Origin: Crocinitomicaceae bacterium
GTDB lineage: Bacteria > Bacteroidota > Bacteroidia > Flavobacteriales_G > Salibacteraceae
Length of the DNA: 42,084 nucleotides
Assembly (NCBI GenBank): GCA_002705995.1
Contig: PAJI01000001.1
Coordinates: forward strand, 151,805 to 193,888
Reading direction: 5' to 3'
The notes beneath the pieces were generated by a model that saw nothing but the letters and a program-made list of their open reading frames with translations, was not told where the DNA came from and did not search any database. The position numbers and the translations under genes were made by a program. Shown one piece after another: positions 39,953 to 42,084 of this stretch (positions within the stretch are counted from its first letter, which is position 1; each line of letters begins with the position of its first letter).

Positions 39953-40050
39953 AATTCTTTTTTTATAGATGATGAAATCTCTGTTTGGGTGCGTTAAATT
40001 GTTAACGGTTTGTATATGATGCGTGTCCCGAAGGGTATGTACTATAGCTG

Positions 40051-40061
40051 TTGTTGGCGTG
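40051..40061. repeat. Left arm of 11-bp inverted repeat flanking the nuclease cassette
   Basis: TTGTTGGCGTG at 40051-40061 is the exact reverse complement of CACGCCAACAA at 41536-41546. The two copies lie 8 bases beyond the stop of the GIY-YIG gene and 15 bases before the start of the HEPN gene, bracketing exactly the two-gene unit. Confidence 0.8.
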
Positions 40062-40068
40062 TCGTTTT

Positions 40069-40926
40069 TTATTCTGTTGTTTCGTACTCTTTCAATGTTT
40101 TTCCATCTTTAAGTTTCCATTCCTTTAGTCCATTAGCGTTTCTACCCATAACAATAGCTGCTGCTGTAGAGGGACTGGAAAATTCATAATCTTTATCGAA
40201 AACTAGCTTCTTTTCTTTCTCTATTATGGTTTTATTTTCAATCAATTTTGCTCGAATATTAAGTAGTGAGTTTTGCATTGAGTCGACTGTACTTGTTGCT
40301 ATTTCACTATTCTTTAACACGATAAAGCCTTTAGAGCTTGGTATTCCAAAGCCGTTTGCTCCACGTGCTGCATTAATATAGAAAGTATTGGATTTCTTCG
40401 TCTTTGCTGTTTCAGAACTAATTAAAGTTTCAAAAACTCTATGACCAAGTGTATTCGTAAGGAGTTTAATATTTTCAATGAACTCTTCCATTTCGGCTAT
40501 TTCTGACTCAGAAATCGAAGATTTTGAAGGAATGGAGTTGTTAGCTAAGTCATAGCTATTTACCTTTTTTGTAATCTCATATAAGCGACTTTCTAAATAC
40601 TTTATATGAGCTTTATTTAAATTCTCATCTTTGCTTATGAACAAGATTACTTCAGTCCAAAACTCCTTCTGTGCAACATGTTGTTTTAGTCTGTCAATGA
40701 TTGTTTCTGCTTCGCCAATGTAAATCTGGCCTTTACCATCTTCATTCTCACCAAACAACAAATAGATTCCTGGACTTATTAAGTCTTTTCTTGAATACGA
40801 GTCCTTAATCATTATTCGTGGAATCTTGTATGCTTTACCTGTCCAATTGGAGAGTTCACATGTCATTCTTCCATTTGGTTCACCGTCAATTAAGAATAGC
40901 TTTATCGTTTTACCAAATTTTCTCAT
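40069..40926 (-). CDS. GIY-YIG nuclease with C-terminal DUF4357 domain
   Basis: The 285-residue protein has an N-terminal leader block (LFLIDGEPNGRMTCELSNWTG) typical of this subgroup, then the nuclease domain with GIY at 53-55 and YIG at 69-71, the catalytic arginine R79 (GEAETIIDRL) and a candidate metal-binding glutamate E112 (YLESRLYE). A helical linker follows, and the C terminus is a DUF4357 domain (SPSTAAAIVMGRNANGLKEWKLKDG). It should be a DNA endonuclease; its target is unknown. The family is often found near restriction or mobile elements. It follows the HEPN gene with a 16-base gap and is in one operon with it. Confidence 0.9.
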   Translation of the reverse strand: MRKFGKTIKLFLIDGEPNGRMTCELSNWTGKAYKIPRIMIKDSYSRKDLISPGIYLLFGENEDGKGQIYIGEAETIIDRLKQHVAQKEFWTEVILFISKDENLNKAHIKYLESRLYEITKKVNSYDLANNSIPSKSSISESEIAEMEEFIENIKLLTNTLGHRVFETLISSETAKTKKSNTFYINAARGANGFGIPSSKGFIVLKNSEIATSTVDSMQNSLLNIRAKLIENKTIIEKEKKLVFDKDYEFSSPSTAAAIVMGRNANGLKEWKLKDGKTLKEYETTE

Positions 40927-40942
40927 TTAATACCGCTTGTTT

Positions 40943-41521
40943 TTAAACAAATTCTTTTTGTCCGTTTAGGTCTGTTTTTAGTTCTTCAAAAATCTCTCGA
41001 AAATTCAATATTCCTTCATAGGTGCCAAGCTTAAATCGGTACTCTATTTTTTCTCCCCAAAGTTTATCGCCTATATTATTCGCTTCGATTATGAGTGGTT
41101 TAATGAGATTATCAAAATTCAAGAACTCGTCAATATTTAAATCCGTAGAATAGTTTAAATGTGCTATTCTATTATTTCTGTGTTGAACTTTTAGATAGTT
41201 GATGTTTTTTCGAAACGAATCAAAATCTTTTTTAAGCTCTTTTATCAATTTCTGATCTGTAATTGTCTTATTTGTAGCTTTCAATATTTTTCGGAATGAG
41301 AACGTTGAACTATCATCATCAAGATTTGTCAAATGAAGTATTAGACCGTTTTCCATGTATCTTAAAGCAGTGAATTCTTCAAGAATGTAATGTCTGGTAG
41401 TTTCTTGAAATAGATAACCTAGTCTGTTCAATTTTCGTATGTAAAAACACGCTAGAATATTGAGGTCAATCAATTCAACTCTTAAACTGGAAAACTGGTC
41501 TTTTTGCTCTTTACTTAGCAT
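40943..41521 (-). CDS. HEPN-domain protein, AbiU2-like
   Basis: The 192-residue protein is almost entirely helical. It contains RNNRIAH at residues 115-121, which fits the R-X4-6-H RNase signature of HEPN domains, including a polar residue right after the arginine. The layout, with a preceding helical bundle and an AH dipeptide, recalls AbiU2-type HEPN proteins from abortive infection. RNA cleavage is inferred from the motif only. It is the first gene of a two-gene unit with a GIY-YIG nuclease. Base composition is AT-rich. An inverted repeat (41548-41573) lies in its leader. Confidence 0.75.
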   Translation of the reverse strand: MLSKEQKDQFSSLRVELIDLNILACFYIRKLNRLGYLFQETTRHYILEEFTALRYMENGLILHLTNLDDDSSTFSFRKILKATNKTITDQKLIKELKKDFDSFRKNINYLKVQHRNNRIAHLNYSTDLNIDEFLNFDNLIKPLIIEANNIGDKLWGEKIEYRFKLGTYEGILNFREIFEELKTDLNGQKEFV

Positions 41522-41535
41522 TTTTTTTTCTAATG

Positions 41536-41546
41536 CACGCCAACAA
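41536..41546. repeat. Right arm of 11-bp inverted repeat flanking the nuclease cassette
   Basis: CACGCCAACAA, the exact reverse complement of 40051-40061, lies just upstream of the HEPN gene start, directly followed by the hairpin at 41548-41573. Confidence 0.8.
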
Positions 41547-41547
41547 G

Positions 41548-41573
41548 GGATAACAATAGCGTTACTGTTATCC
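41548..41573. repeat. Hairpin in the leader of the HEPN gene
   Basis: GGATAACA at 41548-41555 pairs perfectly with TGTTATCC at 41566-41573; inner TA/TA pairs leave a GCGT loop. It may be an operator for the two-gene unit, or part of a cassette-border structure next to the 11-bp repeat. Confidence 0.65.
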
Positions 41574-41870
41574 TGTCAAAGTTGTAATTGATTTATTTCA
41601 TTGATCATGAGTTGGTAAGTGTTGGTTTTGCGTCTTGAAAAGCATTTTTCTTTTGGCAAGAAAAAATTGATGAAAAGTGTTTTATAGTGTTTAGCATCGA
41701 TGTTTTATTTGTTCTTCTTCAAAACTAACACATTCGAAAGGAAAAAGTAAGGTAGAGAAAAGGCTTTCCTGCCTTTAGGGACTTATTTGTTCGCTCAATG
41801 TTAGTGTCATCGGGAGTGTCTTTTGTGCCCTGAGCGGGGTTTTACTACGTAGGTTGAGCGGAGTCGAAAC

Positions 41871-41988: not shown

Positions 41989-42084
41989 AGTAAAAGTCAA
42001 GTTGATTCGAAGGTGATTTTCTCCGCTATGCTCCGAAATCGGAGGATTCGCTTAGCCTACATGCTTGTGTTTTGCAAACACGCA

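Follow-up and report, generated by a model that had tools for sequence, protein, structure and literature searches.

A PDC-S14-type GIY-YIG/DUF4357 nuclease gene and a probable AbiU2-like HEPN gene in one putative integron-cassette-like unit of a Crocinitomicaceae bacterium

GIY-YIG domains are found in homing endonucleases and UvrC as well as in candidate defence proteins such as PDC-S14, and chromosomal integrons store anti-phage genes, such gathering being found in Vibrio. PDC-S14 was described as a single-gene phage defence candidate overlapping GAO_29, and its distribution in Pseudomonas did not track phage resistance; of 14 strains, 57% were susceptible (PMC10855318). A modification-dependent (type IV) endonuclease activity has been suggested as possible for fusions of GIY-YIG with RAMA (PMC11037411). 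HEPN domains make up many toxin families and are known to partner restriction-modification (R-M) systems, and AbiU2 was described in R-M operons (PMC3710099).

In the window, that is, the whole analysed stretch of 42,084 nucleotides, two genes resembling these families lie next to each other on the minus strand, separated by 16 bases (40927-40942). Their positions and spacing in the initial annotation were correct, and so were the residues it named, namely R79 in the 285-aa protein and R115-N-N-R-I-A-H121 (R-X5-H) in the 192-aa protein, while its description of the unit as bounded by repeats holds for one inverted pair, exact over 11 bases and located just outside both genes. Both reading frames are intact, and the two-gene unit is AT-rich, with a GC content of 0.32 compared to 0.39 for the whole window. 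No Rfam family or terminator-like site was found in the region searched. The features of the unit are as follows:

40069..40926, minus strand: GIY-YIG nuclease gene with a C-terminal DUF4357/RAMA-like domain, 285 aa, ATG start, PADLOC PDC-S14 family
40943..41521, minus strand: probable AbiU2-like HEPN gene, 192 aa, ATG start, R-X5-H motif R115...H121
41536..41546, minus strand: 5' boundary arm, gene strand TTGTTGGCGTG, exactly complementary to the 3' arm over 11 nt
40051..40061, minus strand: 3' boundary arm, gene strand CACGCCAACAA, exactly complementary to the 5' arm over 11 nt
40003..40050, no strand assigned: 3' cassette element in an attC-like position, core TCCCGAAGGGTA
41547..41575, no strand assigned: palindrome immediately upstream of the 5' arm, GGATAACAGTAACGCTATTGTTATCC on the gene strand, 8-bp hairpin, z -1.6

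The 285-aa protein matches the PADLOC profile PDC-S14 over its full length (E 1.2e-113, residues 1-282 on profile positions 13-295 of 301) and possesses DUF4357 at its C-terminus (Pfam E 3.1e-23), where a weak Pfam match to RAMA was detected as well (E 0.0048). The Pfam GIY-YIG match (E 0.0018) is below the family cut-off, and there is a weak match to UvrC. In the alignment of homologues, Y55, Y69, G71, R79 and E112 are invariant in all 23 sequences and H83 is kept in 21 of them, a pattern such as would be expected of a working GIY-YIG nuclease. The GIY-YIG plus DUF4357 assignment made earlier is thus borne out by the profile match, the DUF4357 match and the conserved catalytic residues, and the protein most likely acts as a restriction-type enzyme that cuts DNA. 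It resembles PDC-S14 in the full-length match and in the combination of GIY-YIG with DUF4357, but that candidate is listed as a single gene, whereas here a HEPN gene lies in one cassette with it. It is likewise similar to GIY-YIG-RAMA and wH-GIY-YIG type IV enzymes in having a GIY-YIG domain joined to a likely DNA-reading domain, although the characterised wH-GIY-YIG modification-dependent endonucleases have a winged-helix reader and the 285-aa protein has DUF4357. Adenine methyltransferases adjoin its homologues, which argues against simple 6mA cutting and makes a modification-dependent specificity uncertain.

A profile search found PDC-S14 in 26 of the 395 phylum genomes, including the genome of the window, and 27 plasmid records carry homologues of the 285-aa protein. 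In seven of the nine plasmid records that were read, which are the best matches and no random sample, the homologue is located within or next to a type I R-M operon; these are the records from Prosthecochloris, Parabacteroides, Acinetobacter, Salinibacter, Bacteroides, Rhodococcus and Alteromonas. In one phage record a DNA methyltransferase gene lies upstream of the GIY-YIG homologue, and on the viral contig IMGVR_UViG_3300015370_001134 (L053:2983-6849) a GIY-YIG/DUF4357 gene with 54% identity is immediately followed by one for a Drt1a reverse transcriptase. GIY-YIG homologues are thus embedded in defence loci, as seen from these type I R-M genes and the Drt1a neighbour. The same gene of the viral contig sits after a gene coding for a sigma-54 RtcR-like regulator. 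On the Desulforapulum plasmid NC_012109.1 (L072:5995-12858), a 279-aa hypothetical protein is encoded twice under one accession, once after the GIY-YIG/DUF4357 gene and once after another gene with DUF4357, which suggests a duplicated unit.

No family match to the 192-aa protein itself was obtained with Pfam, PADLOC and other libraries. Its homologues match HEPN_AbiU2 (PF18734), three of the five members doing so at E <= 0.1, with the best match belonging to the Acetobacter homologue (E 6.1e-6) and another to that of Pelobium (E 0.024), both below the Pfam cut-off; the best homologue reaches 26.3 bits, the gathering score being 26.8. The motif HRNxxIAH is invariant across the five HEPN homologues, and its R115-N116...H121 corresponds to R-X4-6-H with a polar residue after the arginine, which fits the HEPN RNase motif of Anantharaman et al. 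2013 (PMC3710099). Structure prediction, proposed in the initial annotation for each of the two proteins, gave an all-helical AlphaFold model of the 192-aa protein (pLDDT 72, three sequences in the alignment), for which the PDB search returned generic helical bundles, none of them significant. For the 285-aa protein a strand-strand-helix-strand-helix order was predicted with low confidence (pLDDT 53), the model being so poor that a PDB search is meaningless.

Because there is no direct match, the relatives are below the cut-off, the motif is invariant and the model is modest, the HEPN identity is considered no more than probable: what stands of the earlier HEPN call is the similarity of the relatives to HEPN_AbiU2 and the motif shared by all five, and the window protein does not match any family by itself. 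It is like AbiU2 in that its homologues match the profile, in the R-X5-H motif and in its predicted helical structure, whereas it lies below detection itself and represents a rare subfamily with the motif HRNxxIAH. Most likely it acts as an HEPN RNase that needs no metal and resembles AbiU2 in kind. Used as a query against phages and plasmids, it found one plasmid record. The closest relative is the 81%-identical homologue from Pelobium manganitolerans; on an Acetobacter plasmid the HEPN homologue stands alone, with a type I R-M operon about 2.5 kb before it, and in two viral contigs, which may be fragments, lone HEPN homologues are located among tail-type genes. These solo AbiU2-like HEPN genes of the viral contigs (L052:2857-3435 and L069:2501-3079) are on the opposite strand and are possibly superinfection-exclusion genes.

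The initial annotation suggested that the two genes make up one defence or toxin system, a proposal which by its own terms depended on the pair being conserved in other genomes. The HEPN profile matches only the window's own genome among the 395 phylum genomes, and the same is true of the 395 class genomes; a weak second match in the own genome (contig C32, E 8.7e-4) was gone at E <= 1e-4 with a better profile. PDC-S14 is present in 25 further genomes of this phylum sample, none of which matched the HEPN profile. In Pelobium manganitolerans the HEPN gene is preceded, with a one-base overlap, by an unrelated 223-aa gene, and no PDC-S14 match was found in a search of that genome, nor is there PDC-S14 in the records of the three more distant HEPN homologues (the Acetobacter plasmid and the two viral contigs). 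Since no other genome or record searched holds both genes, the pairing in the window is unique in what could be searched, and since relatives carry the genes apart, the two are most likely accidental neighbours and no new defence machine. A conserved HEPN plus GIY-YIG system is accordingly rejected, no second genome with the pair having been found in the phylum and class samples. What survives of the earlier proposal is the defence flavour of each gene: both belong to known kinds of candidate defence genes, the 285-aa protein being the listed candidate PDC-S14 and the 192-aa protein being AbiU2-like, and a system made up of the two is unsupported.

GIY-YIG as a fixed partner of some HEPN gene was also considered and rejected. 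A Parabacteroides plasmid encodes an MNT/HEPN-type protein about 570 nt after the GIY-YIG homologue, but this HEPN protein belongs to another family and has no similarity to the window HEPN, and an Alteromonas protein annotated as HEPN has no Pfam match.

Read on the forward strand, the arms of the unit are TTGTTGGCGTG at 40051-40061 and CACGCCAACAA at 41536-41546. In gene orientation the 5' side is ...CCCTTGTTGGCGTGC, followed by 17 nt and the ATG, and the 3' side is ACACGCCAACAACAGCTATAGTACATACCCTTCGGGACACGC.... An exact arm of at least 11 bases between two 60-nt flanks was obtained in 16 of 20,000 shuffles and in 26 of 20,000 random window placements (about 1 in 1000). The tip of the 3' element has the sequence TCCCGAAGGGTA, of which the 4.49-Mb genome contains exactly three copies, all of them located 3' of a gene; the other two are at C24:85531-85574 and C25:162491-162544. 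The C24 copy gives a hairpin of 18 bp (z -4.5) and the window copy folds poorly. GTTR-type boundary arms are absent around the PDC-S14 homologues examined elsewhere, so the arms belong to the cassette context and not to the gene.

On the same contig, 6-9 kb further along and 5 kb past the end of the window, there is an array (C1:198954-202915, or L002:13150-17111) of minus-strand units with complementary arms and with hairpin elements between them, which encodes PDC-M48A (E 6.9e-66) and PDC-M48B (E 1.9e-166), corresponding to a unit of MBL plus a 165-aa protein, and a PD-(D/E)XK protein with a weak PDC-S26 match. Given the arms of these neighbouring units and their PDC-M48A/B and PDC-S26-like content, the neighbourhood is taken to be a small defence-flavoured cassette array. 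Further cassette-like places are located on C24 at about 83.7-85.6 kb (L063) and on C25 at about 162.5-164.6 kb (L064), both having the TCCCGAAGGGTA hairpin in common with the window unit. One neighbour on C25 is a nitrilase-type protein weakly resembling the Drt1a C-terminus. Outside the cassette regions, a near-identical dispersed repeat, gattcgaaggtgattttctcc...ggaggattcgcttagcctacatgct, is found at window positions 41990-42066 and at L002:17590-17665.

Arms matching across the unit were found in four cases, namely the window cassette, the MBL plus 165-aa unit (GTTGTAGCCA), a 179-aa gene on C25 (GTTGTAGCCA) and the Pelobium unit (GTTAGCAGTA). A gene-anchored test covered 1,569 candidate gene units in 1.23 Mb of the genome. 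Six of them possess arms that contain GTTR and are 10 bases or longer, compared to a mean of 1.25 (maximum 4) with mismatched flanks, and five of these six fall at the three cassette places. An untargeted inverted-repeat scan of the same length (1.23 Mb) gave 32 GTT arms versus 40 in the control, which is no excess; of the two tests only the gene-anchored one is informative, and since there is no genome-wide excess the cassettes are few. The array is not a classical integron, as no integron integrase was found in the genome (no TIGR02249 match over the cut-off) and the arms GTTGGCG, GTTGTAG and GTTAGCA depart from the classical core GTTRRRY / RYYYAAC. With integron cassettes and CALIN arrays it shares complementary boundary arms, a hairpin 3' of the gene and defence-candidate neighbours, and it differs from them in the lack of an integrase over the cut-off, in a core other than GTTRRRY and in the small number of units. 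It may tentatively be proposed that this genome and Pelobium carry non-classical integron-like cassettes with GTTG/GTTA arms and species-specific hairpins, which lack IntI and gather anti-phage genes. If the cassette reading is true, PDC-S14 with the HEPN gene, PDC-M48A/B and the PDC-S26-like gene would have been gathered in a way comparable to that of the Vibrio chromosomal integrons.

The two genes of the window thus probably constitute one integron-cassette-like mobile unit of two functionally independent defence-type genes transcribed together, with an anti-phage role suggested for both by their families and context. The GIY-YIG domain would cut incoming DNA that the C-terminal DUF4357/RAMA-like domain probably recognises, perhaps by its modification state, making the 285-aa enzyme type IV-like or an accessory to restriction-modification. 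The predicted HEPN RNase would stop or slow the infected cell, so that the unit might provide two independent layers, a DNA-cutting enzyme and an RNase shutting the cell down. The same parts could be read as a dedicated two-component defence, in which the GIY-YIG protein would sense or cut invading DNA and the HEPN RNase would serve as a second-line suicidal effector. Such a reading draws on the 16-base gap and the common boundaries, on the partnership and proposed coupling of HEPN domains with R-M systems and the listing of AbiU2 in R-M operons (PMC3710099), as well as on the MNT/HEPN-type protein about 570 nt after the Parabacteroides homologue. It is nevertheless unlikely, as the pair is absent from every other genome in the phylum samples, Pelobium has the HEPN gene with no PDC-S14 found, and the Parabacteroides protein is of another family, dissimilar to the window HEPN. 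Tight spacing in both Bacteroidota loci (the 16-base gap and the one-base overlap) and the many toxins among HEPN families (PMC3710099) would also suit a HEPN toxin with its cassette partner, the GIY-YIG protein, as antitoxin or regulator. This is very improbable, however, with the partner differing between the loci, lone HEPN homologues existing and the GIY-YIG protein keeping a full active site, which an antitoxin does not need.

A selfish or housekeeping role for the GIY-YIG protein, as a DNA enzyme of the homing or repair type and not of defence, appears quite unlikely. The occurrence of GIY-YIG domains in homing endonucleases and UvrC, the weak UvrC match seen here and the failure of PDC-S14 to follow phage resistance in Pseudomonas (57% of 14 strains susceptible, PMC10855318) are in line with it, but the patchy presence in 26 of 395 genomes, the repeated location inside type I R-M operons and the position beside Drt1a on a viral contig speak for defence. 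It is very improbable that both genes are passengers in a decaying region and currently functionless, as the AT-rich sequence and the poorly folding 3' element might imply, for the reading frames are intact and all the conserved active-site residues are kept.

With the tempting interpretation as a new two-gene system removed, two leads remain. The first, a GIY-YIG/DUF4357 defence candidate, is widespread and found in operons of type I restriction systems; the second is an array of cassettes with no recognised integrase and several candidate defence genes, the layout of which merits separate study. To our knowledge, classical integrons have scarcely been reported in Bacteroidota, and if the cassette reading is true, such arrays would represent a route by which Bacteroidota collect and shuffle defence genes, missed by standard integron finders.
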